Assembly: GCA_017550315.1 (NCBI GenBank)
Contig: JAFZPN010000051.1
Span: 1-58,972, forward strand
DNA from: Clostridia bacterium
Lineage (GTDB): Bacteria > Bacillota > Clostridia > Oscillospirales > CAG-272
DNA: 58,972 bases
Direction: 5' to 3'
In this document: piece by piece, positions 36,607 to 54,503 of the stretch
Layout of the letters: the number at the start of each line of letters is the position of its first letter
Numbering within the stretch: the first letter of the stretch is position 1
Position numbers and translations under genes: made by a program
Notes under the pieces: generated by a model
What the model was told of the DNA's origin: nothing
Seen by the model: the letters and a program-made list of their open reading frames with translations, nothing else
Database searches by the model: none

Positions 36607-36645
36607 CGCTTGTCTCCCCCTTTCCCGTCGTTCCCATTTTTCCCG

Positions 36646-37440
36646 TCACTGTGGCCGGGTCGCTTCTTCGAGCGCGCGGACGGCCAGCGAGAAATCGAAC
36701 AGCTTTTCAAAGGATTCCGTATCTTCTCCGCCAACCTTCGCATACGCCTCCCGGCAGAGCGCGTAGCCCTCACCTGATCCCTCGGCAAATCCCTCGAACA
36801 GGGCGAGCAGTTCCGCGGCGTCCTTGACGGCAAACGCCTCATCCGCGAGCTCCTCCTTGTTTGAGAGCGCGTAGACGGCGCAGTACTGCATGACTTCGGG
36901 GTACCTCTCCCAGTCGATGTCCCGCACGCCCCGGACGGATTCGAGTGCGTCCGCGTAGGACATGTTCATGTGCGACACCCGGTAATCCGCGCTCATCGCC
37001 AGCCCGAGGATGAATTTGTAGGAGTAGTTCGGCGCGTTCTCAAGCCACGCGTCTTTGGCCACCCAGACGCCCTTCAGTTCCCCGTCCGCGTCGAAGCAGT
37101 CCGGGAACACGACCGTGAGCCCGTCTCCCGCACGGATCTGTCCGAGATCCTTTGCCTGCAGGTAGGTGATATCGATCCCCTGCTTTTCCTGCCGGATCTT
37201 GTCCAGCGAAGCCTCGGGGGAGGGGGAGAAAAAGACGTAATTCGAGATCCGCTGGAATCCGTTCACCGTATTGGTGAGATAGAGGCTCATCCCCGCCGTC
37301 GACATCTCCACGCCGACGTTGACGTATTTGTTTTCCTTCGCGCACCCGGCGGACAAACCAAGGATCGTCAGCGCGAGCAAAGCAGCCGCCGCGCAGCGGA
37401 GTATTCTTTTGAGGGACTTCTTTTCCTTTCCGCTCTTCAT
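36646..37440 (-). CDS. Lipoprotein of unknown function, binding-protein-like
   Basis: The 264-residue protein has a lipoprotein signal with lipobox LSAGC near residue 33. The mature part is short for a solute-binding protein; segments such as GIDITYLQAKDLGQIRAGDGLTVVFP and a downstream helical half resemble the nitrate/taurine/thiamine-precursor type of binding fold, but the match is weak. Its start overlaps the stop of the GPH symporter by four bases (ATGA), so they are translationally coupled. It could deliver substrate to the symporter or act as a surface sensor. Confidence 0.6.
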   Translation of the reverse strand: MKSGKEKKSLKRILRCAAAALLALTILGLSAGCAKENKYVNVGVEMSTAGMSLYLTNTVNGFQRISNYVFFSPSPEASLDKIRQEKQGIDITYLQAKDLGQIRAGDGLTVVFPDCFDADGELKGVWVAKDAWLENAPNYSYKFILGLAMSADYRVSHMNMSYADALESVRGVRDIDWERYPEVMQYCAVYALSNKEELADEAFAVKDAAELLALFEGFAEGSGEGYALCREAYAKVGGEDTESFEKLFDFSLAVRALEEATRPQ

Positions 37441-38948
37441 GCCTCGCTCCCTCCTTCCGCAGGCTCCGTCACAGCCGGATGTTCTTTATCCCATTCCGCC
37501 TGCCTCTCGGCCCGCATCTCGTAAAGCTCTTCGAGGATCTTTTCCTTGCGCTTGCCCGTATAGTGATCAAACGACATGATGATCCCCGGGACGATGTTTC
37601 CGACGATGCCCGAGACCGTGATGAGATAGAAGATGCCGTTCAGCGTCTCGGTCGACTGGACCACGCTGATGGTCGTCGAGCCGAAGGATTTCGCGCTGAC
37701 ATAGCCAATGAGCACCAACCCGGCCGGGAAGAGGAGGCTCTTCCAGAATCCGCTGATCCTCGACGCGGTGGACCGGAGCGCGAACACCATGGCCTCCGAC
37801 CGGACCGGCTCGCCGTACTTCTTCCAGGTCATGTATTCCATATAGTCCGTGGAATCCGCGAGCAGGATGTTCCTCGACGAGCTCATCGCGCCGTTCGGCA
37901 GTCCGGCAAAGCCGACGATCAGTGCGACCACGAGCAGCGATTTATAACCGATGAGCAGGAAGAGGATGTAGAGGATCCCGGTGTAGAAGTAGCCGTACAT
38001 GATGATGTCGCGGGAGGAGAGCTTTGCGCCGATGAAGGGCACCGCGGCAATGCCGAGATAGGAGAGCGTCGCCGAGATCGTGCCCGCGACCGACGCCATC
38101 CAGAACGATCCGAGCGTCTCGAGATAGAAGTACGCGAGTCCCGAATAGCACACCTGCCGGACCGAATCCACGATCTGGGACAAAATCAGGCACCACATCG
38201 GTCTGTTCAGCATCAGCGCCTTGAAATTCAGCGCGATCGGCGCCTCCTTCCGCCAGGCGGCCGCCGTCTTTTCGCGGAGCGTGAAATACGGGATGATCAT
38301 GAGCGCGAAGCCCGCGACGCCAAAGAAGATCGCGAAGAGCAGGTAGATCAGGGCTTCCTTCTCCATGTAGATCGCGACGAAGATCGGGATCAGGCCGCTC
38401 GGGAGCATTCCCCCGAGGGTCGACGCGAACTGCGCTACGGTGTAGAAATTTTTCCGGTCCTTCGGATTCGTGGTCATTCTGGCCGAAATGGTGGACAGCG
38501 CCATGTCGTAGAAGCCGTCCGTGATGCAGTAAAGCAGATAGAACACGAATACGTAGACGATCCTGGCCGTGAGCCCGATCCCGGGCACGACGAAGAGCAG
38601 GATCGACGAGACCGCGAGCGGCAGCGGCATGACGAGCGTGAAGGCCTTCGCCCGGCTCCTGCCGTTCTTCCCTTTTCGGTCGAGGATCACGCCCGCCAGC
38701 GGGTCCACGATGATGTTGGCGATCTTGGCCACCATTTCGAGGATGATGACGAAGGACGCCGCGATCCCCATGAACCGGGTCAGGAACAGCGTCAGCGCGT
38801 AGGCCTCCACATCCTGCGCCATGGAATTCCCCATGATGCCGGAGGAATAGCCGAATTGCTCCCTGATCGTAAACGTCGGGTTATGGACGATGTGGCCCCA
38901 TGCCGCCTTCCATTTGGATCCGGCGCTCTGTTTCTCTTCTTTGCTCAT
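37437..38948 (-). CDS. GPH-family sugar:cation symporter (MelB/XynB-like)
   Basis: The 503-residue membrane protein has about twelve hydrophobic segments in the major facilitator fold and the glycoside-pentoside-hexuronide motifs, including NIIVDPLAGVILDRKGKNGRSRAK near residues 74-95. GPH members import disaccharides, pentosides or hexuronides with sodium or protons. It is the first gene of the operon with a lipoprotein, a metallophosphoesterase and a beta-helix protein, pointing to uptake and processing of a specific oligosaccharide. A promoter lies about 220 bases upstream, leaving a long leader. Confidence 0.85.
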   Translation of the reverse strand: MSKEEKQSAGSKWKAAWGHIVHNPTFTIREQFGYSSGIMGNSMAQDVEAYALTLFLTRFMGIAASFVIILEMVAKIANIIVDPLAGVILDRKGKNGRSRAKAFTLVMPLPLAVSSILLFVVPGIGLTARIVYVFVFYLLYCITDGFYDMALSTISARMTTNPKDRKNFYTVAQFASTLGGMLPSGLIPIFVAIYMEKEALIYLLFAIFFGVAGFALMIIPYFTLREKTAAAWRKEAPIALNFKALMLNRPMWCLILSQIVDSVRQVCYSGLAYFYLETLGSFWMASVAGTISATLSYLGIAAVPFIGAKLSSRDIIMYGYFYTGILYILFLLIGYKSLLVVALIVGFAGLPNGAMSSSRNILLADSTDYMEYMTWKKYGEPVRSEAMVFALRSTASRISGFWKSLLFPAGLVLIGYVSAKSFGSTTISVVQSTETLNGIFYLITVSGIVGNIVPGIIMSFDHYTGKRKEKILEELYEMRAERQAEWDKEHPAVTEPAEGGSEA

Positions 38949-39161
38949 ATTTCACCCCATGGCAATCCTGCCCGCCCACGATCTGTCCGCAGTCCCGCGG
39001 CGGCAGGATGGTTGCATAGAACTTATGACTTTCAGGTATCGATGCCGTCGGAAGAGATCCGGATATCCCCGCTCCCCGGCAGCGCGGCAACGGGACTTCA
39101 TCAACCGCCCGATCGGATAAGGCGGGACCGTCCGTGCTCGATCATCCCGTTTCCCTCTACC
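38949..39161 (-). other. Long untranslated leader of the GPH operon
   Basis: About 210 bases lie between the predicted start of transcription and the GPH start codon, with no convincing open frame. Near the start codon ATCCTGCC.. and ..GGCAGGAT can pair around a GC-rich loop, which could hide or present the ribosome site. I cannot assign it to a known regulatory RNA class. Confidence 0.35.
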
Positions 39162-40215: not shown

Positions 40216-40320
40216 GGCAGAGCTGTGACCACCGCCGCACCCTTGCCCCAGCCGGATCAAATCTGCTCTGCCACCCGAAAAACAAAGAAGCGCCTCAAAT
40301 CGCTCTGAAGTGCTTCTTTA
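40216..40320 (+). ncRNA. Candidate small RNA (unassigned)
   Basis: A transcript from the orphan promoter would begin near 40218 and run about 100 bases to the tRNA terminator hairpin. Its first 60 bases are closed by the complementary pair GGCAGAGC (40216-40223) and GCTCTGCC (40264-40271). No coding potential or known RNA family is recognised, and the T run after the hairpin on this strand is moderate. This is a structural prediction only. Confidence 0.3.
40284..40319 (-). terminator. Terminator after tRNA-Ala(GGC), copy 1
   Basis: AAGAAGCGCCTCA..CTGAAGTGCTTCTTT forms a stem-loop 11 bases beyond the tRNA 3' end on the minus strand. The same hairpin follows the second tRNA-Ala at 54,221-54,255. 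Confidence 0.8.
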
Positions 40321-40329
40321 TTAGTTCCA

Positions 40330-40402
40330 TGGAGCATACGGGACTCGAACCCGTGACCCCAACACTGCCAGTGTTGTGCGCTCCCAGCTGCGCTAATGCC
40401 CC
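40330..40402 (-). tRNA. tRNA-Ala(GGC), copy 1
   Basis: A 73-base cloverleaf reads from 40402 down to 40330. Anticodon loop CTGGCAG gives anticodon GGC; the T arm is ACGGGTTCGAGTCCCGT; the acceptor stem GGGGCAT/ATGCTCC carries the alanine G3:U70 pair and the discriminator is A. A second, slightly diverged copy lies at 54,276-54,348. Confidence 0.93.
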
Positions 40403-40426
40403 GGTTTCAGAAAGGACCGTTTCGCT

Positions 40427-40456
40427 TGCACCTTCAGGGACTCGAACCCTGGACCC
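40427..40456 (-). pseudogene. tRNA-Lys 3' fragment at a recombinase attachment site
   Basis: The minus strand holds only the T arm and acceptor 3' strand of tRNA-Lys: GGGTCCAGGGTTCGAGTCCC and then TGAAGGTGCA. It differs at one position from the intact gene at 54,374-54,446 and diverges completely upstream of GGGTCC, where recombinase-element sequence begins. It lies 44 bases beyond the recombinase stop codon. Confidence 0.8.
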
Positions 40457-40500
40457 GGTGCCGGTGAAAGGGATACTTTTTCCCTGTGGCTCCTCTGCAA

Positions 40501-42099
40501 TCAAAATGTTCCGATAAACTTGTATCGGATTGTGATCTTCTGCGTGGTCCTTCCGTTTTCCCGGACGCGGTCGCCCACGGTGATCGAGGCGATCAGGCGA
40601 TTCAGGACTTCCCTGTTCAGCTCCGTCATGTCGGCATACTCCGCGGCGAGATCGGCGAACTTCTCCGCGCCGTCCTCTGCTTCCCGCTGTTCTTCGAGGG
40701 CACGTTTTACCTCCGCGAGACGCTCTTCCGCCTTCGTCTGCGCCGCCTCGCAGTCCCCGGCGAGTTCCGTGAACTTTCTTTCGGACAGCACGCCTTTGAA
40801 CCGGTCGCCATACAGCTGCTTGTACATCCGGTCAAGGTCCGCGATCTTCCCGGTCAGCTCGTCTCGCTCCCGTTCCAGCTGCTTCCGTCCGGAGTCTCCG
40901 CCGTCGTCCATCCGGGCGAGGATCATCGCGATCAGCGTTTCCCGGTCCTCCCACGCCGCAGCGGACACCTTCTGTATGTCCGCGAGCACGGTGGAATACA
41001 GTTCGTCGTACCGGATGTAGTGGCTTGTGCAGGCGTCCGGGCCTTTTTTCTTGTAGGTGTTGCAGACGTAGTAATTCGTGTGGTCCTTCGTATTCGACAG
41101 GACGAGACTGTATCCGCAGGTTTCGCATTTCAGGAGTCCGGCGAAGATGTTGACGAATCCGGTCCGGCTTTCGTGCTTCCGCGTTTTCAGTCTTTCGTGC
41201 GCGTCGTTCCACAGCTGTTCCGTGATGATTGGCGGGAAAGCGTTCTCGACGACGATCCACTGGTCTTCCGTCTTGCGGACGACCTTTTTGTTCTTGAACG
41301 AGAGGACGGTCCTCTTGCCGTTGACGCAGTGCCCGAGATAGGTCCGGTTGGCGAGCATCGTATAGACGGAAGTCAGATTCCACTCGTACGGGTCTTTTGC
41401 CGTCGGTCTGCCTTCGGTCTCCGCGACATAGGCAGACGGGGTGAGGATCTTCCGCGCTTTCAGGATGCGGGCGATCTTGTCGTAGCCGTAGCCCTGATAC
41501 GCCGCCATCTCGAAGATTTCTTTGACGATCGGAGCCGTCCGCTCGTCGATTTCGAGGATATGCTTGTCCTCTTTGGATTTGCGGTAGCCGTACGGGGCGC
41601 GTGCCGCGATAAACTCGCCGTTTTCCGCCTTCGTTTTGAGCGCCTGCCGGGTCTTGCGCGAACAGTCCGCCGGGTAGTATTCGTTGAAGATATTCTTGAT
41701 CGGGACCATGAGGTCGTAATCGAGACTTCCCTTCGCCGAATCGACGTCATCCCCGACGGCAATGAACCGGATTCCCTTCTCGGGGAGGATGACCTGTAAG
41801 TACTGTCCGACCTGCAGATGCTCCCTGCCGAAGCGGGACAGGTCTTTGACCACGATGGTGTTGACCGCGCCGGCATCCGCGTCCGCCATCATCCGCTTGA
41901 ACGCCGGTCTCTCGAAGTTCGTGCCGGTGTAGCCGTCGTCCTGATAGAAATCGTGGATTTCGTATCCGTGCTCCCGGCAGTAATCGCCGAGGAGCTTGGT
42001 CTGCGTGGCGATGGAAATCGACGTGCCGTCCGCCGCGTCGTCGTCACTCAGGCGGCAGTAGCAAGCCGCCTTGATTCTTCTCTGCTCTGTAAGTATCAT
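40501..42099 (-). CDS. Large serine recombinase (element 1)
   Basis: The 532-residue protein is a TnpX/TndX-type large serine recombinase. The N-terminal resolvase domain (about 8-160) has the nucleophile Ser18 in CYCRLSDDD and the DLSRFGRE block. The recombinase domain follows (about 185-290), then a zinc ribbon (CETCGYSL with two further cysteines, near 335-370), a coiled-coil stretch (about 415-480) and a DUF4368-like tail. It should carry out site-specific integration and excision. Its stop codon lies 44 bases from a truncated tRNA-Lys. A paralog of the same length lies at 54,540-56,138. Confidence 0.93.
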   Translation of the reverse strand: MILTEQRRIKAACYCRLSDDDAADGTSISIATQTKLLGDYCREHGYEIHDFYQDDGYTGTNFERPAFKRMMADADAGAVNTIVVKDLSRFGREHLQVGQYLQVILPEKGIRFIAVGDDVDSAKGSLDYDLMVPIKNIFNEYYPADCSRKTRQALKTKAENGEFIAARAPYGYRKSKEDKHILEIDERTAPIVKEIFEMAAYQGYGYDKIARILKARKILTPSAYVAETEGRPTAKDPYEWNLTSVYTMLANRTYLGHCVNGKRTVLSFKNKKVVRKTEDQWIVVENAFPPIITEQLWNDAHERLKTRKHESRTGFVNIFAGLLKCETCGYSLVLSNTKDHTNYYVCNTYKKKGPDACTSHYIRYDELYSTVLADIQKVSAAAWEDRETLIAMILARMDDGGDSGRKQLERERDELTGKIADLDRMYKQLYGDRFKGVLSERKFTELAGDCEAAQTKAEERLAEVKRALEEQREAEDGAEKFADLAAEYADMTELNREVLNRLIASITVGDRVRENGRTTQKITIRYKFIGTF

Positions 42100-42138
42100 A
42101 ATATCCCTTTCCGAGCAGAGCGGTGTGGGGGTATCTCC

Positions 42139-42167
42139 ATTATACCCCCGTTCCCTGCCCGTGTCAA
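42139..42167 (-). promoter_or_regulatory. Promoter for recombinase 1, overlapped by a hairpin
   Basis: On the minus strand TTGACA (42167-42162), a 17-base spacer and TATAAT (42144-42139). The -10 box is embedded in an inverted repeat GGGGGTAT..ATACCCCC, a likely operator. Recombinase 2 has a related promoter at the same distance. Confidence 0.78.
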
Positions 42168-42194
42168 TCCTCCCTTCTTCCTTTTTCGCTGCCG

Positions 42195-42365
42195 TTATCC
42201 GGCTGTTTTCGCGGATTCGGCGATTTTACGCCGGATCATATCCGCCGCGTAGTCCGCGTAGAGATCGAGAAAGTCCCGGTCCCCGAATACGCGGGTGACG
42301 ATGATCTTCGTACGGTTTTCCTCCTTCTCTTCTTCTCTTTCATGTTTGTTCTCTTTCTTTTTCAA
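42195..42365 (-). CDS. Small recombinase-associated protein (element 1)
   Basis: This 56-residue gene uses a TTG start (42365) with AAAGGGGA upstream and so is easily missed. The N-terminal half is a run of Lys and Glu; the conserved part reads TKIIVTRVFGDRDFLDLYADYAADMI. A paralog with the same core (TKIIIRRTFGDQSLLEIYADYLAGKI) lies in element 2 at 57,953-58,141, also upstream of the recombinase. Conservation of the core and its position indicate a real gene whose product may assist or regulate the recombinase, for example as a directionality factor; this is untested inference. Confidence 0.7.
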   Translation of the reverse strand: MKKKENKHEREEEKEENRTKIIVTRVFGDRDFLDLYADYAADMIRRKIAESAKTAG

Positions 42366-43721
42366 ATCGTAATTCCCCTTTCGTATTATGATCGTTCAGT
42401 TAAGCACCCTGACGAGGTGTACAGTTTCAGACGGACCCCCACGTCGTGATTTGGGAGGGGTCCTGCTTCACAGACTCCCCGGCTGCCGCGGTCCGGCTGC
42501 ATAACTCCGCCTTTTTTTCGACGGGGCTTCCCTCCAGTCCTTGAGAGAGCGTGAGCAAGTTTCATTATCCCCCGTATCGTCATGGCGATCCGGTTTACCA
42601 ACACCGGATTACAGGATTCCGGAGATCGCTCGGAGGTTTCCCTCGTCATGGCGGCGGTTCCTGTGTCGCTCGGGTACGGGTTTCGTGCCGGGGTGTCTTA
42701 TTCAGTTGTCAACGAACAGATGTGTTCCTGCTAACGTCAATATTCTATCACCTATTGTCGGCAAAAGCGAGGACAGTAGCTGGCATACTTTTTTGAGGAT
42801 GTGTATGCGTATTCATTCAGATTTCAAGCCTCCCGAAGGGATTTCCCCTTCATTTATGCAGTCTGACTTCCGTTTCCCTTCAAAACTGCTGTTTTGAGAC
42901 GATTTTGGTCCTCGAAACCATGCCACATGGTGGCACTTTTGTATATTATTAATTTCTGGCACAATTTGTGTATATTCTTTCATTCATGAATCCCCCTCCT
43001 TTCCGGCCGGTTGTCTCAAGAACCTCTGTAACCAATTTGTAAAGGTGTTGCTGCACGATGCGCCTTCTCATTACGGCCATATTGTAACATCTATTGACCG
43101 CAATAACCAGACAAAAACTTGCGCGTTTATTTGAGCCCTTGAATACGTATTCATGCAGAATCAGGCATGTAAGGCACGGGACTTACCGCCGGATTGCAGG
43201 ATTCGCGTCCGGCGGTTTCATCTCGCCCGTCTTCCGGGGATTTTGAGTGAGAAAATCACGCAAGATTTGACGCGAATGAATAATATTTATTTTTACGTAA
43301 CTTCCACATTTCGCATCCTTCTTCGCTTGGCGGAGGACGTTCGTAGTTGCTGAGACCCCCACGTCGTGTTTCGTGATGGCCTCCGAGCCGGCCGGGAACG
43401 GCTTTCTTGCTGGGACGTTTTCTTCTGCTTTCAATGAGCGAGTCTCTCTGGTTCTCAACTATTCTACCGCTTTTTCTCGTGGATTTCCAAACGAAACTTC
43501 GTCCGAAAATTTGAGACGATGAATACGTATTCATGCAGTTTCAGCGCGATTTAGAGCTATTTTTGCTCCGATCTTGCAGGATGAGGCTCCGGGCGATTCT
43601 TTTCACTGCTTTTTCTTGGTTTTTGGCACAAAAAAACGGACAAAATGATGTCTGTTTGTATAATATTTTTTTGGCGAGTATTTATGCGCTTGATGCTGTC
43701 TCTTTCTTATACGCTCGAGCG
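42366..43721. other. Gene-free region of element 1 with direct repeats
   Basis: No credible coding sequence was found in these 1.36 kb, apart from short open frames without ribosome sites. It contains two copies of ACCCCCACGTCGTG (42435 and 43355; a third is at 53220), the first inside an inverted repeat. It also contains two exact copies of GAATACGTATTCATGCAG (43141 and 43521) plus a degenerate one near 42803. A small palindrome TGCCACATGGTGGCA lies near 42930. The region probably holds transfer or replication sites and decayed genes. A possible promoter (CGGACA/TATAAT, 43637-43664) precedes the NADAR remnant. Confidence 0.5.
42433..42463. other. Candidate nick site/oriT hairpin
   Basis: GGACCCC (42433-42439) and GGGGTCC (42457-42463) form an inverted repeat around CACGTCGTGATTTGGGA. 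The layout recalls relaxase nick sites of ICEBs1/Tn916-type elements, in which C-rich and G-rich arms flank a CACG- or TATC-containing loop. No relaxase gene is present in the window, so function is unproven. Confidence 0.35.
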
Positions 43722-43974
43722 ATGGATCTGGGCAATCTTGGTATCCTTGCCCCGCACAAAGCAAAATACTACAACCGTTACGATATTAACTGGCTCTCTG
43801 ATAAGGTCGATGAGTGTACAGAATTGAGGTACATCACATTTTGGAAAGCTGATCCCTGCGAAGAAAACAACATCTTTTCTCAATGGTATAAAGCCCGAAA
43901 TCCAATCTACATGAATGGCCGCACCTATATTACAGCCGAACAATACATGATGTCCGAAAAAGCCCTCCTCTTTC
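43722..43974 (+). pseudogene. NADAR-family gene, 5' part (interrupted)
   Basis: The frame encodes the N-terminal half of a NADAR (YbiA-like) protein: KYYNRYDINWL, then LRYITFWKADP, then FSQWYKARNPIYMNG and AEQYMMSEKALLF, all typical of the family. NADAR proteins are ADP-ribose-linked N-glycosidases; some reverse DNA ADP-ribosylation as antitoxins of DarT toxins. The reading frame then runs into unrelated sequence. The missing half lies 3.2 kb away at 47,131-47,567 in the same orientation; joining the two restores the frame as ..KALLF-R-DMDSYL... The start codon (43722) lacks a clear ribosome site and is uncertain. Confidence 0.8.
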
Positions 43975-44085
43975 AGCTGATTGAACCGGGGACGGTTTTT
44001 CGTATGTCTCCCCCATCAGCGCTGCCGTTTGCGGACGCTCCGAGCTGTGTAAAACGCGCGAAGGGGCAGTTTCCGCGTCTTCCTG

Positions 44086-45555
44086 TCACCAGAAAGCGCG
44101 GCGCACCGGCAGCGGATCCGCGGTCTGCGCCATCCGGTCGGCGAGCACCTCGAGCATCCGCTTTTGTTCCGCGGCAGCTTCCGGTTTGCCGTACAGGTTG
44201 ACATGCTCGCCGGGATCGGATTCTAGGTCGTACAACTCGCTGCCGGGAATGTCGAGCGTGTCCGTTCCATGCACCTTCACAAGCTTCCACCTTCCGTCGC
44301 AAACCATGGTGAGAAAGGCGAGCGGATCCCGGTGGTTGATGTTGGAATTGTAATACTCGCTGTAAACGCTGTTCCGATGGTGATCCGGCGCGGCTTCGTC
44401 CGTGAGCAGCCCGAGGAAGGACCGTCCCTGGAACGAGACGGGGATCCCGATCCCGACCGCTTCGCAGAGCGTCGGCGCGAGGTCCACCATCTCGACGAGC
44501 GCCTCCCGTCTCACGCCGCGGAGCGTGTGTCCCGGCCAGTGGATCACAAACGGGATGTGAACGGCGTTTTCATAGCAGTACGGCCCCTTGAGGTAGATGC
44601 CGTGATCGCCGAGCGATTCGCCGTGGTCGGAGGTGAAGATCACGATCGTGTTCTCGTACTGCCCGATGGATTTTAAATAGTTCACGATCCGCCCGACGCC
44701 CGCGTCGATCTGATCGACCATCGCCCAGTATGCAGCCCTGAGCCAGCGGTGATCCGTTTCCGTCATCTCGTCGTAGGCCAGGTGTCCCGGCGTGTTGTAT
44801 GCCCCCTCGTGATCATGTCGCTGGAAGACGGATTTGCTCTCCAACTCGCCGGGCACATAATCCGGGAGCGGGATTTCGTCAAGCATCGGGCGGTACCGTT
44901 CCAGATATTCCGCCGGGGGATCAAAGGGATGATGGGGGTCGTAGCAGTTGATCGAAAACAGCCACGGCTGATCCGGCTCCTGCTCCCCGATGAAACGCAT
45001 CGCCTCGTTAAAGCACCATGTCGTCTGGGAATACTCCGTCGGCATCCCGTACCGCACGTAACGGCAGTCCGGGAACGGATCCGTCTTAAAGTCCAGTCCC
45101 TGTGCCGTCAGCCAGTTGGTGTAGGCATTGCCGGACCAGTTGCCCCTTCCTGCAGCCGCCGGATGGTGCGACCACGAGAAGAAGGAGTAGCCGTCGTCGA
45201 TGCGGCGTTCCATGTCCGGCTGGACGGCGGGAGAGCAGACGCTGATGTGCAGCTTCCCGGAGAGACCGCAGACATATCCGTTGTCCGCGAAAAGGCGGGG
45301 CAGAAGCAGTTCCGTCTCCGGGATGTTCTGTCCGTTCTGCCGCACGCCGCAGGTGCGGGGATAGCGGCCGGAGAGAAAACTGGCCCTTGCCGGCGCGCAG
45401 ACCGGGCTCTGGGAATACATACCGTCGAACAGTACTCCCTCCGTGGCAAGAGCGTCGATGTGTGGCGTATGCGTAAAGGGATTGCCGTAACAGCCGAGCG
45501 TGTCCCGCCGCTGCTGATCGGTGCAGATCCAGAGGATGTTTGGTTTTCGTTCCAT
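44086..45555 (-). CDS. Type I sulfatase (arylsulfatase family), first
   Basis: The 489-residue protein is a formylglycine-dependent sulfatase. The modification site is C-A-P-A-R (Cys53 in SPVCAPARASFLSGRYP), to be converted to formylglycine by an anaerobic maturase. N-terminal metal ligands are in ICTDQQRRDTL, and the FTSDHGESLGDHG block near the middle supplies further metal ligands. No signal peptide is seen. It would remove sulfate esters from a sugar or aryl substrate. The start follows an AAAGGACGG-like site. It lies 28 bases after the second sulfatase and probably shares its transcript. No maturase gene is nearby. Confidence 0.92.
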   Translation of the reverse strand: MERKPNILWICTDQQRRDTLGCYGNPFTHTPHIDALATEGVLFDGMYSQSPVCAPARASFLSGRYPRTCGVRQNGQNIPETELLLPRLFADNGYVCGLSGKLHISVCSPAVQPDMERRIDDGYSFFSWSHHPAAAGRGNWSGNAYTNWLTAQGLDFKTDPFPDCRYVRYGMPTEYSQTTWCFNEAMRFIGEQEPDQPWLFSINCYDPHHPFDPPAEYLERYRPMLDEIPLPDYVPGELESKSVFQRHDHEGAYNTPGHLAYDEMTETDHRWLRAAYWAMVDQIDAGVGRIVNYLKSIGQYENTIVIFTSDHGESLGDHGIYLKGPYCYENAVHIPFVIHWPGHTLRGVRREALVEMVDLAPTLCEAVGIGIPVSFQGRSFLGLLTDEAAPDHHRNSVYSEYYNSNINHRDPLAFLTMVCDGRWKLVKVHGTDTLDIPGSELYDLESDPGEHVNLYGKPEAAAEQKRMLEVLADRMAQTADPLPVRRAFW

Positions 45556-45583
45556 GATTTCCGTCCTTTCGTGCAGGCGTTCT

Positions 45584-46990
45584 TCAGTCGGCTTTGGTGC
45601 GCTGAATGATCCGGTCCTCGACCCAGTTCTCCCGGTAGTAGCTGACCGGATGGAATTTGTCGTTTACACGGGCCATTTCGGCGGCCATTTTGCTTTTCAG
45701 ATCGGCGAGGACGGGCGCATAGGCCGCTTCTCCGACGAGGTTCCTCCTCTGCAAAGGATCGGCGACGTTGTCGTAGAGGTGTTCTTCTCCGTCTTTGCGA
45801 TAGACGGCGTAGGTGTACCGCTTCGTGCGGAACGCGCGCCATTCGTATCCCTCGCCCCAGTCCGCCGTCGCGCCGGTCCCCATCATGAGCGCGCCGTCCG
45901 GTTCAGCCGCGCCGGGCTTTCCGCGGAGAACAACCGAAAGATCATGGCCCTCGACTTCCGCCGGGATCGGCAGACCGCAGAGGGAGCAGAGCGTCGGCAT
46001 CACGTCGACCGTGTTGAGGCAGACGTCACAGGGACCTTCCGGGATCGTACCCGGGCAGCGCATGAGGAACGGCACGCGGACGGCCTCCTCGTAGAAGATG
46101 TTCTTTGCCCGCCGCCCATGCGCGCCGAAGAGCTCGCCGTGATCGGAGGTGAAGACGAAGACCGTGTCCTCCTCGATCCCGAGCCGTTCGATCGCCGCGC
46201 ACATCCGGCCGACATTGTAGTCGACGTTGGCGACCATGGCATAATAGACCCGCATCCAGGCGGGGATCCGCTCCCGCTCCTTCGGTGAGAGCCGCGCCCA
46301 TCCGTCGGCGTGGGGATCGTTTTCGGGCAGATAGTTGTCGGGGAGGGTGAATTCCGTGTCCCGGAACTGCGCGAGCCATTCCGGAGGCACGTTGTTCTCG
46401 TCCCACGGGTCGTGCGGCGTACCGAGGGAGAGGAAAAGAGCAAATGGCTTGTCCCCTTTCGCCAGTCGCTCGAGCTCCCGGATCGCCATATCCGTCTGGC
46501 AGTCGGGCTCGTACGCGCTTTCTCCGTAGTGGATCTTTTCCGGAGAGTTCAGGTGATAGTAGGAATTCTCGCCGTAGTTTTCGTGGTGGAAATTGTACCC
46601 GGCGAAGAACCCGTCGAAGCCCAGCCGGTCCGGCCCTGCGGGGATGTAGGAGTTCTTCGGATCGAAGTGGTTCCCGAGCTCGTTCGCGTAGAGATGCCAT
46701 TTGCCGATGTAGGCCGTCTCGTACCCCGCGCGGGAGAGGACCTTGGCGAACGTATCGTGTTCCGGGGAGATGCGGATCTCATTGATGACCATCCCGGTGG
46801 AGGTCGTATACTTGCCGGTGAAGAGCGAAGCCCGGTAAGGAGCGCAGACGGGATGCCCCGATACGGCGTTCGAGAGCTCGCAGGATTCCCGGGCAAGACG
46901 GTCGATGTTCGGCGTCTCTGCGCGGTTGTCCCCGGCATAACCGCAGGACTGCCTTCTCAGCTGATCGGCAAACATGTAAACGATGTTCAT
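45584..46990 (-). CDS. Type I sulfatase (arylsulfatase family), second
   Basis: The 468-residue protein is a second formylglycine-dependent sulfatase with site C-A-P-Y-R (Cys49 in HPVCAPYRASLFTGKY). The metal block FTSDHGELFGAHG and the IGKWHLY block are typical. No signal peptide is seen. It differs clearly from its neighbour, so the pair probably acts on two sulfate positions or two substrates. The start at 46990 is chosen for GAGGAG 8 bases upstream; an ATG 13 codons earlier overlaps this site. A -10 box (47033-47028) lies within the inserted block. Confidence 0.92.
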   Translation of the reverse strand: MNIVYMFADQLRRQSCGYAGDNRAETPNIDRLARESCELSNAVSGHPVCAPYRASLFTGKYTTSTGMVINEIRISPEHDTFAKVLSRAGYETAYIGKWHLYANELGNHFDPKNSYIPAGPDRLGFDGFFAGYNFHHENYGENSYYHLNSPEKIHYGESAYEPDCQTDMAIRELERLAKGDKPFALFLSLGTPHDPWDENNVPPEWLAQFRDTEFTLPDNYLPENDPHADGWARLSPKERERIPAWMRVYYAMVANVDYNVGRMCAAIERLGIEEDTVFVFTSDHGELFGAHGRRAKNIFYEEAVRVPFLMRCPGTIPEGPCDVCLNTVDVMPTLCSLCGLPIPAEVEGHDLSVVLRGKPGAAEPDGALMMGTGATADWGEGYEWRAFRTKRYTYAVYRKDGEEHLYDNVADPLQRRNLVGEAAYAPVLADLKSKMAAEMARVNDKFHPVSYYRENWVEDRIIQRTKAD

Positions 46991-47130
46991 GATACTGTCT
47001 CCTCGTGGAGTATCCTTCCTTGCTTCCATTATACACCATGAAGCGGCAAATGAAAAGGGAGATTTGAAATTTTACTTGGTTTTGCCGAGAACACGGGTTC
47101 CGCGAGCCATTTCCACGGAGATAAGCCCTC

Positions 47131-47567
47131 GAGACATGGATTCCTACCTCTCTATCATGGATAAGCCAGATCCGCAGAAGGATAAACATCTGGGACGTCT
47201 TGTAACTGGGTTCGATCAAAGCGTCTGGGACGCCAATGTTAGAGAAATCCTCTTCCATGGAAATCTGGCTAAACTGCAGTCTGATATAGAGTTCGTAGAT
47301 GCGTTGCTTGCGACCGGCAATTCCGTCCTTGTTGAAGCTTCCCCCCTCGATGGTTTTTTTGGAGCGGGATTGGATAAAACATCTCTACTAACGGCAGATG
47401 GAACCCTTCTGGTTCATCCGCACAATTGGCATACGAAGAAAGATCCCGCCAAACAATCCCAGAACCTCCTCGGCTTTGTGCTGATGGGGTTAAGGGATCT
47501 GTTCCGGGATCTGATGAAGGAAAGATGGCTGCCGGGTGAGGAACAGGTATTTTTCAGCGAGGAATGA
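47131..47567 (+). pseudogene. NADAR-family gene, 3' part
   Basis: From about 47131 the plus strand encodes the C-terminal half of a NADAR protein: DMDSYLSIMDKPDPQKDKHLGR, then FDQSVWDANVREILFHGN, then VLVEASPLDGFFGAGLD and NLLGFVLMGLRDLF, ending at 47567. These blocks follow directly on those at 43,722-43,974 in intact homologs. There is no ribosome site or start codon at the proper place for separate expression, although ATG codons at 47137 and 47158 exist. The 3' end abuts a convergent AAA fragment. Confidence 0.8.
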
Positions 47568-47568
47568 A

Positions 47569-47778
47569 TCACTCCGATTCGATCACAATTGACGGCGCAC
47601 GAAAATCCTCCGCTTCAAGGGTTTGTAACTCCTTGTCCGAAAGCTCCGTAGTTCCGTACAGTCGATCCGCTTGTCTGACAACTGCTGCCTCAAACATATT
47701 CCTGACTTCGCGAGCATTTGCGAAATTCTCATCCCGCGCATCATATTGTTTTTTCAGGATTTCTGACGCATAGAAATT
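47569..47778 (-). pseudogene. C-terminal fragment of a CbbX/SpoVK-type AAA ATPase
   Basis: The minus strand encodes only the C-terminal lid of a CbxX/CfxQ-type AAA+ ATPase: ARDENFANAREVRNMFEAAV, RQADRL and DKELQTLEAEDF are family blocks. Walker motifs are absent because the sequence upstream switches to the DUF3846-like remnant. This looks like a deletion scar between two element genes. Confidence 0.7.
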
Positions 47779-47779
47779 T

Positions 47780-48125
47780 TTACTCTTTGAACAATGGTGG
47801 GCTCCTTTCCTTCGATATGGCAATGATCTTTCCGGCAAGTTTGAAGAAGGCCTCCGGGGAATGGAACATCTTCTCGTATTTCTCCTGCATATCCTTCGGG
47901 AGGGAGGAGAAATCTTCCTCCCCCAAGCCTGTAATCAGGAACTTCCCGCAGATTATGTCCACCATCTCCCCGTCTTCGTCGTAAACGGCGCGGTTAGCTC
48001 TCATCCCGTTGATCTTCCCTTCTTCGTTGCAAATCAGCGCGACTGGATCGTTGAAATAGTAAACGGCCTGTATATCTCCGTCTACTGCTTACTGCTTTCT
48101 GGAGCGATTCCAATCCGCTGTCCAT
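47780..48125 (-). pseudogene. DUF3846/YodL-type element protein, frameshifted by a 7-base duplication
   Basis: The start at 48125 has AAGGGG upstream and reads MDSGLESLQKAV, then loses frame. A tandem repeat TACTGCT (48083-48089 and 48090-48096, plus strand) is responsible: removing one copy restores LQKAVDGDIQAVYYF and then NDPVALICNEEGK, RAVYDEDGEMVDIICGKF and LPKDMQEKYEKMF, as in conjugative-element proteins with a DUF3846 domain. The frame ends at 47780, where a ribosome-site-like AAAGGAG leads into the AAA fragment. The gene is therefore inactive unless slippage occurs. Confidence 0.75.
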
Positions 48126-48248: not shown

Positions 48249-50312
48249 ATGAACAGGCTTTTGCGCGGCTTGCTGACAACTGCGTTGGCCGTGCCGATGA
48301 TGCTGCTTCCGAGCGGTCTGTCCGCGGCGCCACCCGGACTCTCTACTGACAAAACCGTTTACGAGGAAGGCGAGGACATATTTGTCACCGCTTTCGGTGA
48401 GGGAAAAGACTGGGTCGGTATCTACGCGCGCGGTGAGACGCCAGGCAGTCCCGCCTCGATTTACTGGTATTACGTCGCCGGGGACGCTGAACCCGGAGAA
48501 CCCGTCAATATCAGAAAGACGCGCAGCAACAATCGGCCGGAATACGCGTCGCTGCCCGGCGGAGCCTACACCGTCTTCCTGCTGCTGAACGATGGATACA
48601 CGGTGTCGGAATCCGTGGATATCATAGTCCTGCCCCCGAAAGAAAACAGGATCGCGGCCGCGGCGGATTCTGTCTACGAAGGGGATGCTCTGTCCGTCAG
48701 GGTCTTCGGCTCGGGCGGTGAATGGGTCGGACTGTTCCGGAAAGGCGAGGATCCCATAACGGCTGATCCGCTCGCGTCGTTTGTCCTGACACCGGAGAAG
48801 AGCGGAACAAATGTGACCTTGAAACCGGATTCGGGGAGTCTTTCCGCAGGAGAGTATACGGCCTGCCTTTTCGACGATGAATGCAGATCGGGATCCCCTG
48901 TCACTTCCGTCGATATTACCGTTCGCGAAGCGAAAATCCCCAACGCGCCTGCCGGGCTCAGCTGCCGGTTGGAGTCTGCGTCGGAGGGATTTGCCGGCGG
49001 AACCGTAAGGCTCGAACCCGCCGGGGAGGGAGCCGAAGCGGAAGATTTTCTCCTGTTCTGGGGAAAGGACGGAGAGCCGCTCCCCGGATATACCCGCCTC
49101 GCGAAAGCCCACGCTTCAACATCCTCCGTCGAATTCACGCTCCCGCAGTATCTGACGGTTCCTGAAGGCGCGGAGGAAATTCTCGCCTGCGGGGAGAACC
49201 GGTTCGGCCGATCCCCCTATGTCTCCGTATCTCTGCCGGAAGGAACCCGGCCCTATACCGCTGGAGAGATCCTTCTGCGATTTCAGGTGACGAGCGACTG
49301 GCACGTGACGGATGATCCGAATCACGACCACAACCGGCATCTCGGCATGATGCTCGATGACATTGCGGCGGTTTGCCCGGACAGCGCGGCAATCGTTGCG
49401 GTGGGGGATATTGCGGATCACGGGTGGGAATCGGAGTACAGGCGTGTCGAAGAGATCGTCGGGAGCCGGAAAAACGTTCCTCCGATCCATTATGTTATCG
49501 GCAATCACGACGTGTCCATGAACAAGGGATACAAGAAGCAGATCGAAATCTTCGGAGCGTTCTCCGGAAACGAAAGCGCGTATTACGATCTCTGGATCGG
49601 CGGGTATCATTTCATTTTCCTCGCGTTTGAAACGGAAGGCGCCCCCCAGTCCATCCCCAAAAAGGAGCTGACCTGGCTTGAGGAAAAGCTCGCCGAGGAC
49701 GCCGATCCAAAGAAGCCCATCTTCGTTTTCTGCCATGAATCCATTGTGAATACCGTGGCCGGGAGTACGCCCGAGGAAGGCTGGTGGGGGATCTCGAACG
49801 GAGACAAAGTCGCACAGATCTTTTCCCGCTATCCGCAGACGGTGTTCTTCAACGGGCACAGCCACTGGGAACTCTGCTCTTACAACGAAATGTTCGCTGG
49901 GGACGGAAAACGGACGTTCTCCGCGTTCAACACCTCCGCGGTCGGATATCTCTGGACGGGATACAATGTCGTGCCGGGAGAGTATCTCTACGGGTCGGAA
50001 GGGCTTTTCGTGGAAGTATCCGAAAATGCGCTCACGGTACGCGGAAGGAACTTTGTGACCGGCGAATGGACGGCGTCTGCGCAGTACGCGGTTCCGGGCG
50101 CGTGGGAAAACATCACGGTGTCCGCTCCTGCCGAAAGCGTTCCCGAAACGGACGGGAAAGAGGCGGAACCTACGGATAAACCGGCTCCGGAAACGGATTC
50201 CCTGCCCGACGAAGGGACAAAGGGCTGCGCCTCCGCACTCGGCACCGGTTCAGCACTCGTCTTTCCGGCTGTCTGCGCGGCAGCGGTTTTGACCCGGAGA
50301 AGAAAAGAATAA
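48249..50312 (+). CDS. Secreted metallophosphoesterase with repeat domain and C-terminal anchor
   Basis: The 687-residue protein has a signal peptide (about 1-26), a repeat domain also found in the next gene (about 30-130, with DWVGIYARGETPGSP, SIYWYYVA and YTVFLLLNDGY), a diverged second copy (about 133-230), a beta-sandwich, then a calcineurin-like phosphoesterase (about 345-570). Metal motifs in order are SDWHVTDD, VGDIADHG, GNHD, FCHES and GHSHWE. An acidic Pro/Thr linker leads to a C-terminal tail: G-C-A-S, a hydrophobic stretch and RRRKE. The tail resembles protein-sorting signals and predicts surface anchoring. The ribosome site is CAGGAGG. Substrate unknown. Confidence 0.88.
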   Translation: MNRLLRGLLTTALAVPMMLLPSGLSAAPPGLSTDKTVYEEGEDIFVTAFGEGKDWVGIYARGETPGSPASIYWYYVAGDAEPGEPVNIRKTRSNNRPEYASLPGGAYTVFLLLNDGYTVSESVDIIVLPPKENRIAAAADSVYEGDALSVRVFGSGGEWVGLFRKGEDPITADPLASFVLTPEKSGTNVTLKPDSGSLSAGEYTACLFDDECRSGSPVTSVDITVREAKIPNAPAGLSCRLESASEGFAGGTVRLEPAGEGAEAEDFLLFWGKDGEPLPGYTRLAKAHASTSSVEFTLPQYLTVPEGAEEILACGENRFGRSPYVSVSLPEGTRPYTAGEILLRFQVTSDWHVTDDPNHDHNRHLGMMLDDIAAVCPDSAAIVAVGDIADHGWESEYRRVEEIVGSRKNVPPIHYVIGNHDVSMNKGYKKQIEIFGAFSGNESAYYDLWIGGYHFIFLAFETEGAPQSIPKKELTWLEEKLAEDADPKKPIFVFCHESIVNTVAGSTPEEGWWGISNGDKVAQIFSRYPQTVFFNGHSHWELCSYNEMFAGDGKRTFSAFNTSAVGYLWTGYNVVPGEYLYGSEGLFVEVSENALTVRGRNFVTGEWTASAQYAVPGAWENITVSAPAESVPETDGKEAEPTDKPAPETDSLPDEGTKGCASALGTGSALVFPAVCAAAVLTRRRKE

Positions 50313-50381
50313 AGCACCCGAAAGGAACGCGGCGTTCCTTTGACATATCCGAATTTCATCACAAAGAAAGGAAAGACCACC

Positions 50382-51332
50382 ATGAATAAGCATTCCATGA
50401 AGATCGGCGCGATCCTGTTTCTGTCAGTTGTCACCGCGCTCTGTCTGGCAGTTACCGCGTCGGCTGCTGAGAAGTACCTCACGCTTCCGAAGACCGTCTA
50501 CGGACAGAATGAGGATATCCTCGTCACCGCTTCCGGCGAAGGAACCGACTGGGTCGGCATCTACGCACGCGGTGAGACACCCGGCAGTCCCGCCTCGATT
50601 TACTGGTACTACGTCGCGCAGGATGCGGAACCGGGCGAAGCGGTGGATATCCGCGAAACGCGCAGCAACAGCAGGGCTGAATACGAAGGCCTGCCTCCGG
50701 GAGAATACACGGTCTGGCTGCTCCTCAACGACGGATACGAACCGTTCGATTCCATCGACATCACCGTTATTACAACGCTGGAACTCGACAAATACTCTTA
50801 CACAGAAGGCGACGATATTCTCGTGACGGCCAATGGCGAAGGCAAGGACTGGGTCGGGCTGTACCTTAAGGATGAAGTTCCCGGCGGCGGTATTGCCTCG
50901 ATCTACTGGTATTATGTGGCGGAAGGGCACACGCCGATGGAGCCTGTCAGCATCAAGGGTGAGACGCACAACGCGGACCGGGACGACGTGGCGGATCTCC
51001 CGGCGGGCGATTATACGATGTTCCTACTGTCAAACGACGGATATGACGTGATCGACTCCATTGATTTCACGATTAAGGAGGGTAAGAAGGAAGAACCCGC
51101 CAAGGCCGAAGAGGCGACGGAACCGGCGAAGACGGAAGAACCGGCTGAACCTGCTTCCGAACCCGAACCGGCCGAGGCATCAAACGATACTCCCGCCAGC
51201 CCGGAACCCGCGGCGGCCGACACCGGAACTTCCGCTTCGGCTTCAAAGTCCGGCTGCGGATCCTTTGTCAACGGAGGATTCATCCTTCTTATCACGCTTC
51301 TCGGCTCTGCCTGGATCGCAAAGAGAAGGTAA
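50382..51332 (+). CDS. Secreted two-repeat surface protein with C-terminal anchor
   Basis: The 316-residue protein has a signal peptide (cleavage near ASAAEK), two copies of the about 100-residue domain seen in the preceding gene (about 28-128 and 129-228), a Glu/Pro/Ala-rich linker (about 230-285) and a tail of S-G-C-G-S, hydrophobic segment and AKRR. The first repeat is nearly identical at DNA level to the first repeat of the phosphoesterase (around 48,415-48,485 against 50,550-50,620), showing recent duplication. The start at 50382 has GAAAGGAAAG upstream. It lies 69 bases after the phosphoesterase. Binding to a shared ligand or cell-surface partner is likely; no function is known. Confidence 0.8.
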   Translation: MNKHSMKIGAILFLSVVTALCLAVTASAAEKYLTLPKTVYGQNEDILVTASGEGTDWVGIYARGETPGSPASIYWYYVAQDAEPGEAVDIRETRSNSRAEYEGLPPGEYTVWLLLNDGYEPFDSIDITVITTLELDKYSYTEGDDILVTANGEGKDWVGLYLKDEVPGGGIASIYWYYVAEGHTPMEPVSIKGETHNADRDDVADLPAGDYTMFLLSNDGYDVIDSIDFTIKEGKKEEPAKAEEATEPAKTEEPAEPASEPEPAEASNDTPASPEPAAADTGTSASASKSGCGSFVNGGFILLITLLGSAWIAKRR

Positions 51333-52461: not shown

Positions 52462-53013
52462 TCACGACGCGGGGGGCTCCTTCGCCCTAAGCTTCTTGAT
52501 TTTCTCCGCCAGAACATCGACCTCCTCATAGAACGCTTTTCGAATCGCATCCGCTTCCTCCGGCGGGATCATACCGGCTTTTGCCTCCTTCTCCGCCTCC
52601 AAGCTCCGATGGAGCAGGTATGTGAACTTTCTGCCATAATAGAAACCGTTGACACGGATCGAGGGCAGCACTTCGTCCATCAGCCAGTCGGCAAACTGCT
52701 CCCCGAGTGTTGTCCAGGAATGGAACAGCAGCCGGTAGAAGTCCGCCTCGCAGATGTATTTTCGGTGGATCACCTGCACGGCGTCGCTGCCGTCCTTCCG
52801 CTTGCCTATCACGACGATTTCGTCGACCGTTTTTGTCTCCCGTTTGCAGTGGCGGCGGATCGCGTCCCTTGGATTTTGATACCCGAGCCGTTTCGCGCAT
52901 TCAATCGCTGGAAAGAAGAAATCCGCTCCCTCCTTCAGCGGCTCAAGCCCCTCCAGCTCTGACCCGTCGTAAGAGCCGATCAGGGCAGTGATTGCCAGAT
53001 TCTCGTTATTCAT
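52462..53013 (-). CDS. BRO-N domain phage-type antirepressor
   Basis: The 183-residue protein has the Bro-N fold found in phage and element antirepressors: ECAKRLGYQNPRDAIRRHCK (about 37-56), an IHRKYICEADFYRLLFHS region (about 82-100) and FADWLMDEVLPSIR (about 107-120). The C-terminal third is a charged helix. It probably binds DNA or a repressor and regulates element genes. The start follows AGAGAGGA. It is convergent with the TnpV-like gene. Confidence 0.88.
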   Translation of the reverse strand: MNNENLAITALIGSYDGSELEGLEPLKEGADFFFPAIECAKRLGYQNPRDAIRRHCKRETKTVDEIVVIGKRKDGSDAVQVIHRKYICEADFYRLLFHSWTTLGEQFADWLMDEVLPSIRVNGFYYGRKFTYLLHRSLEAEKEAKAGMIPPEEADAIRKAFYEEVDVLAEKIKKLRAKEPPAS

Positions 53014-53393
53014 GCTGTTTGTCCTCTCTTTCTGGATTTTTGACCGTCAGCTCAATATACCGTCAAACATCACAAATCTCATTGATGTGTTTTGTGCGTT
53101 TTGACGATCATTTCAAATGAGATTCATTTTTCCGCGCATATGATTCCGATTTCGTCTTGGCAGTCGGATAATCGACATTTCCCAAAGGGGTACTGATACT
53201 CCATCATGATCTCGTTCCTACCCCCACGTCGTGATTCGCTCTCCCGTCTCTTTTCCGTCCGTCCTCCCCTGAGTTTTCCAAGACGGGGTTTTCCCGGTCC
53301 TCGCGCGCGCGTGACGGACGGAAGGAGGATGACGATAAAGAGAGCGTCCGTAATTGATAGTTTTAGTTCTTAGTCTTTTAGTATTTATTCTCT
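53014..53393. other. Noncoding region with nick-site-like repeat and inverted repeat
   Basis: No gene is seen. ACCCCCACGTCGTG, the third copy of the repeat found at 42,435 and 43,355, is at 53220-53233. A long-range inverted repeat CCGTCCGTC/GACGGACGG spans about 53,267-53,322. The part next to the initiator-like gene is very AT-rich (around 53,350-53,410) and may be decayed coding sequence of that gene. Confidence 0.5.
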
Positions 53394-53786
53394 TTAGTAT
53401 TTAGTAGTGTCGGATTTCCCTGATCCGGGTCGGCCGCGACAGGATTCTCCGATCGTGGCTCCTCCGTACGCCGTGTTTCCCGAAAAATTCTTCTCCGGAA
53501 TCTCGTGGATTTCCCACTCCTCCTCCGTAAAACTCCCGTTCCCCGACCGGATCCGCGTCCGGCGCAGATAGCCCGCAGCCTCCAATTCTTTCAGCGCTAC
53601 CCGGACGGCGTCCGCCCCTTCCCGGCAATGCGCCACAAGCCCACGCGTGGAAAACTTCCAGTCGTCGGGGAGGGACAGCATGTACGACAGCAACCCCTTC
53701 GCTTTCAGGCTCAGCCGCGTGTCCTTCAGATGGGCGTTGCTCATGACCGTATAGTCCTTGTTCTTCTCCGCTCTATAAATCGGCAT
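53394..53786 (-). CDS. Replication-initiator-like winged-helix protein (probably frameshifted)
   Basis: The 130-residue product begins like the helix-turn-helix replication proteins of Clostridia mobile elements: YTVMSNAHLKDTRLSLKAKG, LLSYMLSLPDDWKFS and a winged helix to about residue 85. The last 25 residues look out of frame. In another frame the same DNA reads NPVAADPDQGNPTLLNT, the kind of Asn/Pro-rich segment that follows in homologs. A frameshift near 53,460 has therefore probably truncated it. The ribosome site is AAAGGAG. Palindromic repeats lie directly upstream. Confidence 0.65.
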   Translation of the reverse strand: MPIYRAEKNKDYTVMSNAHLKDTRLSLKAKGLLSYMLSLPDDWKFSTRGLVAHCREGADAVRVALKELEAAGYLRRTRIRSGNGSFTEEEWEIHEIPEKNFSGNTAYGGATIGESCRGRPGSGKSDTTKY

Positions 53787-53915: not shown

Positions 53916-54220
53916 TCGTGTAACGTTCATATTTGGCTTTGATGCAAGCGTTTCACCGACTTTCTGAAATGAAAAAAGAGCCAGATTATGATCCCGGATG
54001 AAATCAGTCTGGCTCGCGTTCATGTGAGGATGGAGGTCAATCCTACGAACTTTTTCACATGAATTCTATTCGATTTTCGGACGCCCGTATCCCTTCCTTC
54101 ACTCAAAACGCGCCTTCCGGCGAAGAGGGGGGGATACAGCGATATTGCCATTTTTTGCCAATACGCCGGCGCGGATCTGCTAATTTTCTGATTTGCGCAG
54201 AGGGGTGCGCCTACAAACGA
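53916..54220. other. Region between the palindromes and the second tRNA-Ala terminator
   Basis: No gene is recognised in this 305-base stretch. Short open frames lack ribosome sites. It probably marks the right end of the element 1 cargo. Confidence 0.4.
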
Positions 54221-54255
54221 AAGAAGCACCTCAAATTGCTCTGAAGTGCTTCTTT
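54221..54255 (-). terminator. Terminator after tRNA-Ala(GGC), copy 2
   Basis: AAGAAGCACCTCA..CTGAAGTGCTTCTTT forms the same hairpin as at 40,284-40,319, 20 bases beyond the tRNA on the minus strand. Confidence 0.8.
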
Positions 54256-54275
54256 CCGCTTTCGGAGAAAGCGAT

Positions 54276-54348
54276 TGGAGCATACGAGACTCGAACTCGT
54301 GACCCCAACACTGCCAGTGTTGTGCGCTCCCAACTGCGCTAATGCCCC
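54276..54348 (-). tRNA. tRNA-Ala(GGC), copy 2
   Basis: A 73-base cloverleaf reads from 54348 down to 54276, with anticodon loop CTGGCAG (anticodon GGC), the G3:U70 pair and T arm ACGAGTTCGAGTCTCGT. It differs from copy 1 by a few bases; the T-stem changes are compensatory (G-C to A-T), so both genes look functional. Confidence 0.93.
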
Positions 54349-54373
54349 AGCTTTGAGAAAGAACCGTTTCTCA

Positions 54374-54446
54374 TGCACCTCCAGGGACTCGAACCCTGGA
54401 CCCACTGATTAAGAGTCAATTGCTCTACCAACTGAGCTAGAGGTGC
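54374..54446 (-). tRNA. tRNA-Lys(CTT)
   Basis: A 73-base cloverleaf reads from 54446 down to 54374: GCACCTCTAGCTCAGTTGG at the 5' side, anticodon loop CTCTTAA (anticodon CTT), T arm CAGGGTTCGAGTCCCTG and acceptor GCACCTC/GAGGTGC with discriminator A. Its 3' end is repeated at 40,427-40,456. Confidence 0.93.
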
Positions 54447-54470
54447 GTAGCGAAACGGCTTTCCCTATTA

Positions 54471-54503
54471 CTCCCCCTACTGGACTTGAACCAGTGACCT
54501 GAG
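54471..54503 (-). pseudogene. 3' fragment of an unidentified tRNA at the element 2 boundary
   Basis: On the minus strand CCTCAGGTCACTGG, TTCAAGT and CCAGTAGGGGGAG give a T arm and acceptor 3' strand, but no anticodon or D arm follows; recombinase-element sequence begins instead. Amino acid identity cannot be told from this half. It lies 37 bases beyond the recombinase 2 stop and 24 bases before the intact tRNA-Lys. Confidence 0.7.

Follow-up and report, generated by a model that had tools for sequence, protein, structure and literature searches.

How did two sulfatase genes come to lie inside a gene of the NADAR family? The question is raised by a contig of a Clostridia bacterium (Oscillospirales, CAG-272; JAFZPN010000051.1, assembly GCA_017550315.1), whose 58,972 nucleotides are referred to here as the window. 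A sequence-only reading had proposed that a single NADAR gene is split by a block carrying two minus-strand sulfatases, and our analysis bore this out. The two halves matched complementary parts of the 163-position Pfam NADAR profile, with nucleotides 43722-43976 covering positions 2-53 and nucleotides 47130-47564 covering positions 58-162. The right half scored 77.8 bits and the left half 31.2 bits, which alone is under the cut-off of 35.1. The intact homolog L007 showed 61% identity to the left half and 64% to the right half. An intact homolog also scored above the cut-off of the model TIGR02464 (riboflavin-intermediate N-glycosidase), which we take to be the YbiA type. These matches constitute the likeness to the NADAR/YbiA family (PF08719, TIGR02464); the window gene differs in being broken mid-gene and probably at its front.

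Both halves were run separately by tblastn against 26 homologous loci, 25 from a genome scan (L061-L085) and one from a viral-contig scan (L086). Locus L033 was also run and, lying on the same contig as L061, was left out of the counts. Both halves matched in 25 of the 26 loci, the exception being L079, which begins inside the gene, and the spacing of the halves was exact in all 25 loci having both. In 10 of these, the left half's final residue (F, 43971-43973) directly abutted the right half's initial residue (R, 47130-47132) in alignment coordinates. In the remaining 15, at least one of the two alignments ended 1-8 residues early, and the gap comprised precisely those residues. None of the 25 loci carried the halves as separate complete genes, a finding that would have contradicted the proposed split. 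The exact spacing indicates that no codon was lost and that the block is a clean 3,156-bp insertion. Removal of nucleotides 43975-47130 restores the frame, as had been claimed, with an ambiguity of 2 bp that results from TC at both 43973-43974 and 47129-47130. An 8-bp repeat, AAGCCCTC (43960-43967 and 47123-47130), was rejected as a target duplication because it conflicts with the exact spacing.

No single uninterrupted NADAR frame with a start is present, as the gene is split at 43974/47131 and the usual Met is absent. All 12 homologs compared have a Met 7-27 residues upstream of the LGNL motif (L067 was counted by eye). The only Met codons of the window gene fall at positions 3, 50, and 66 upstream of this motif, and the far ones (50 and 66) are within a recombinase module common to the sister species G011. 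This module (40325-43685) matches the G011 locus L046 at 89%; the sharing stops at 43685, beyond which the DNA of G011 differs. NADAR homology is already present by 43695 in L069 and L070 (tblastn), and the native start was probably lost between 43686 and 43695. With no Met at the expected place and G011-shared DNA up to 43685, the front of the gene seems lost, so that the block need not have killed it. The two parts are free of stops over 96 (left) and 145 (right) codons, which was equalled by 13 and 2 of 5000 base shuffles, respectively. Thus, in terms of decay, the break is young. We conclude that the NADAR gene is a pseudogene, and that its disruption is real, precise, fairly recent, located in a decaying island, and ordinary in kind. 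The missing 5' end and the island setting go beyond what had been noted before.

Both open reading frames of the block matched the Pfam Sulfatase profile across its length, and both proteins combine this domain with a CxPxR-type motif. In their Sulfatase and SGSH_C domains and in the motif they resemble S1-type CxPxR sulfatases, the pair being unusual solely in location. Relatives of solved structure, as judged by sequence, include 4upi for sulfatase A and 6j66 for sulfatase B. The proposed promoter of their own was recovered as a promoter-like site upstream of sulfatase B (Table 1), one of 6 such sites found in a scan of the region versus 1.7 expected. Both genes are intact in sequence and are probably still expressed. 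Their G+C content (0.61-0.62) resembles that of the window from 1 to 40 kb (0.616), compared with 0.44 and 0.49 for the NADAR parts. The block DNA was searched in a family sample of 118 genomes, with two first-look candidates scored per genome. It matched in 13 of the 117 other genomes, and every listed match lay inside one gene, none across both. Within the same genus, sulfatase relatives occur at separate places: G024 has B (84%), and G002 has both, A at 80% and B at 76%, on different contigs. The suggested search for an intact NADAR locus and for the sulfatases elsewhere yielded intact homologs and single sulfatase relatives, but neither an empty site in a close strain nor, among the listed matches, one spanning both sulfatases.

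The surroundings of the split gene were compared with related genomes. The stretch from 40.46 to 54.40 kb contains an integrase gene and is bounded by direct repeats at an attachment gene, and the region can probably be read as an integrative island of ~14 kb followed by a second island. In the left repeat, tRNA-Lys is cut, with 30 bases of its 3' part left beside recombinase 1; in the right repeat, tRNA-Lys is intact, and 28 bases of tRNA-Asn are left beside recombinase 2. The two recombinases are identical at 331 of 532 positions. An intact Asn-Lys-Ala tRNA cluster is carried by L094 (G020). In G011, tRNA-Lys is cut in L046/L105 and L118; in L117, tRNA-Lys is intact and tRNA-Asn is cut. By this comparison, the NADAR locus sits in the variable middle, or cargo zone, of the island. 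The island resembles integrative and mobilizable elements (IMEs) in its recombinase at one end, tRNA-linked direct repeats, and variable cargo. It differs in that no relaxase was recognised among the subset of reading frames scanned, and in its serine recombinase, whereas the tRNA-targeting IMEs in table passages of PMC5704250 use tyrosine recombinases.

Given the clean split, the lack of a Met where the start would be expected, the repeats, the recombinases, the intact sulfatase genes, and the G+C contrast, all of which are seen in the sequence, we consider it rather probable that, within the variable cargo of an integrative island in decay, a front-less NADAR gene was hit by the clean insertion of a chromosome-like sulfatase operon in a one-off illegitimate rearrangement. 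The island would have entered the T-arm of tRNA-Lys by means of its own DUF4368 large serine recombinase. It would thereby have become flanked by the tRNA-Ala/tRNA-Lys direct repeats, with a NADAR gene of lower G+C content on board. The front of this gene would have been lost at the junction with the recombinase module, and the operon (promoter, B, A) would have inserted cleanly, any target duplication or microhomology being limited to 2 bp. A one-off event is most likely what moved the block, rather than a dedicated sulfatase transposon.

Several observations weigh against this account. At 0.469, the G+C content of the block's right end (46988-47130) is island-like. Although the absence of any match to the block ends in the 117 other family genomes counts in favour of the account, copies may have been missed, scoring being confined to two first-look candidates per genome. 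No empty NADAR site was found in a close strain when the 3' half was searched in 146 other relatives; it matched in three of them, the same-genus one at just 43%. Finally, ATG 43722 (the Met at position 3) is a possible short start, and L066, L069, and L070 share this Met, plus others upstream.

Other origins of the split have to be weighed against these data. That the metagenome assembly erroneously joined unrelated pieces is most improbable. The assembly is indeed fragmented (231 contigs, 85.4% complete, 4.9% contamination), the window is one whole contig, and the G+C content shifts at the block junctions, but two independent false joins would not keep the halves spaced to the exact codon. 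It is unlikely, too, that the block is a recombinase-free cassette which recombinase 1 or 2, or another large serine recombinase of the TndX/TnpX type, inserted in trans at a GA in NADAR. The clean insertion would suit such an event, as would the DUF4368 recombinases on either side of the region (the genome has five DUF4368 matches) and the direct TC, GA on the opposite strand, at both block ends. Elements of the TndX type are flanked by direct GA repeats, as at the ends and targets of Tn5397, according to passages of PMC3672683 and PMC4430133, and the Tn4451 enzyme recombines 2-bp identical sequences according to part of PMC5704250. The 532-aa recombinases nearby are also close in length to TndX (533 aa in a passage of PMC3672683). 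However, a GA/TC overlap arose by chance in 4.5% of simulated insertions, and target and joint were no closer to the tRNA attachment sites than background GA sites (best 6 of 10, background 6.3%). Comparison of the block ends with the recombinase flanks gave one match at 1.5% among 40 comparisons and nothing beyond. In contrast to Tn5397/Tn4451-type elements, moreover, the block lacks a recombinase, and its ends are unlike the sites of the neighbouring elements. The NADAR target and the tRNA T-arm look alike as expected from the common CTCGAA, but not above background, and the resemblance was dismissed. The broader notion that island serine recombinases of this genus pick up chromosomal operons in trans as GA-bounded, recombinase-free cassettes appears quite unlikely; if true, islands would be collectors of ordinary metabolic genes, much like integrons with cassettes.

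We likewise regard it as improbable that a transposase encoded outside the block moved it as a non-autonomous element, of the IS200/IS605 or REP type for instance. A long target duplication is absent, judging by the spacing of the halves, and a hairpin-capable motif lies near the left end. The folding of the block ends, however, did not surpass that of shuffled sequences (z -0.95 to 0.41), and the Y1 transposase (PF01797), present in 8 of the 25 genus genomes searched, was not found in the genome itself; an IS200/REP-like element was rejected on these grounds. The left-end motif was also rejected as a genome repeat: it recurs at 3 other genome places at ≤2 mismatches, versus 0 for the reversed control, and the one in L003 is a complete terminator hairpin. 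The left end might be half a terminator; whole-terminator patterns of that kind number 0 in the genome. As had been noted, no transposase domain occurs in the block's two genes (Pfam), and no inverted repeat beyond chance was found between the ends. Besides the sulfatases, no block reading frame of at least 150 aa was assigned a domain, and the block has no large serine recombinase of its own. No second copy of the block ends was found, the family search having scored two first-look candidates per genome. A local inversion as the source was considered as well, as sulfatase B and an MFS gene (window 37.4-38.9 kb) share one G024 contig, yet the gene bodies alone match, without flanks, and we rejected it. 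Gene order in the genus seems much rearranged on this comparison of sequences. Three sister species (G011, G016, and G024) retain the MFS-transporter gene block at 35346-38962, with differing neighbours.

It had also been suggested that loss of an antitoxin to DarT could matter to this cell. NADARs linked to DarT1 act as antitoxins, as parts of PMC11543638 and PMC11125620 describe. No DarT domain, and hence no DarT-NADAR pair, was found in the genome, whose assembly is 85% complete. A survey of 63 reading frames beside 17 homologous loci revealed no DarT among the 25 of 62 families listed, and the suggestion found no support for this locus. The commonest neighbour families have 3 members, leaving no strong recurring partner, and an ADP-ribosylglycohydrolase domain occurred in one of the 63 frames. 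We find it very doubtful that the loss of NADAR was selected, be it because a partner ADP-ribosyltransferase toxin had gone or because the sulfatases were useful at this site. The antitoxin role and the lack of DarT in the genome would accord with it, but the families listed in the neighbour survey gave no sign of a former toxin partner, and neutral decay is compatible with both the two lesions and the fragments of neighbouring genes. We infer this neutrality, as well as the order of the two lesions. Loss of a DarT partner together with NADAR was rejected, given the genome without a DarT domain. We saw nothing to suggest that the loss of this NADAR had a toxin-antitoxin effect. The gene may have had a role in defence, to go by its sequence: each half matches PDC-M42C, a candidate-defence model of PADLOC, and the 3' half matched an anti-phage NADAR model weakly, far below its cut-off (25 vs. 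240 bits). Relatives of <60% identity occur in 63 plasmid and 640 phage records, indicating that the family travels on mobile DNA.

A literature search, which cannot prove absence, returned no description of a NADAR gene broken by sulfatases. The locus is a clean, well-bounded case of chromosome-like catabolic genes landed in decaying island cargo. Its setting is perhaps more useful than the split itself: in two neighbouring islands, the T-arms of tRNA-Lys and tRNA-Asn appear to serve as targets of the large serine recombinases. If this targeting holds up, it would be of interest to mobile-element specialists.

Table 1. Features of the split NADAR locus and its surroundings (window coordinates)
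Feature	Position	Strand	Basis
Left direct repeat: terminator-like stretch, tRNA-Ala (40330-40402, -), tRNA-Lys 3' part (40427-40456)	40280-40456		84% match to 54215-54403; intact tRNA-Lys in L094 as reference
Large serine recombinase 1, 532 aa: Resolvase, Recombinase, Zn ribbon, DUF4368	40501-42099	-	Pfam
Remainder of recombinase module common to G011; outward promoter-like site 43637-43664 (+)	42100-43685		L046 match; promoter scan
NADAR 5' part, start region missing	43686-43974	+	Pfam; tblastn (homology from 43695 or earlier); Met positions
Inserted block, 3,156 bp, TC at 43973-43974 and 47129-47130	43975-47130		Exact spacing in 25/25 loci; sequence
Sulfatase A, 489 aa, CAPAR motif	44086-45555	-	Pfam Sulfatase and SGSH_C; motif
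Sulfatase B, 467 aa from ATG 46987 (listed reading frame begins 47029), CAPYR motif	45584-46987	-	Pfam Sulfatase and SGSH_C; motif
Promoter-like site upstream of sulfatase B	47028-47056	-	TTTTCA-17-TATAAT, 10/12
NADAR 3' part	47130-47567	+	Pfam; tblastn
Two partial genes: AAA-lid fragment 47572-47838; DUF3846 fragment 47783-48004 (profile 57-103 of 103)	47572-48004	-	Pfam
Right part of island: Bro-N gene 52462-53013; HTH_36 gene 53394-53786	52462-53786	-	Pfam; Bro-N region near tRNA-Ala in G011 (L118)
Right direct repeat: tRNA-Ala 54275-54349, start of intact tRNA-Lys (54374-54446)	54215-54403		Repeat match/alignment
tRNA-Asn 3' fragment adjoining recombinase 2	54471-54498	-	26/28 bases match tRNA-Asn of L094
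Large serine recombinase 2, 532 aa, start of second island	54540-56138	-	Pfam

Some further features of the island deserve mention. Beside the two related DUF4368 serine recombinases (40280-40456 and 54215-54498), the cut in tRNA-Lys and that in tRNA-Asn both fall in the T-arm, and the same is seen in G011. The motif (G/T)ACCCCCACGTCGTG(A/T)TT occurs three times on the island (42434-42459, 43354-43379, and 53219-53244) and, with 2 mismatches, at one further place in the genome; it may be a transfer origin or a recombinase site. The recombinase module contains repeats surrounding a TGAATACGTATTCA palindrome at 43107-43164 and 43487-43544, and a weaker one at 42769-42826, which are perhaps operator sites. 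A 274-nt repeat of 74% identity is common to the metallophosphoesterase gene at 48249-50312 and the next reading frame (50340-51332), representing a duplicated domain on the island.

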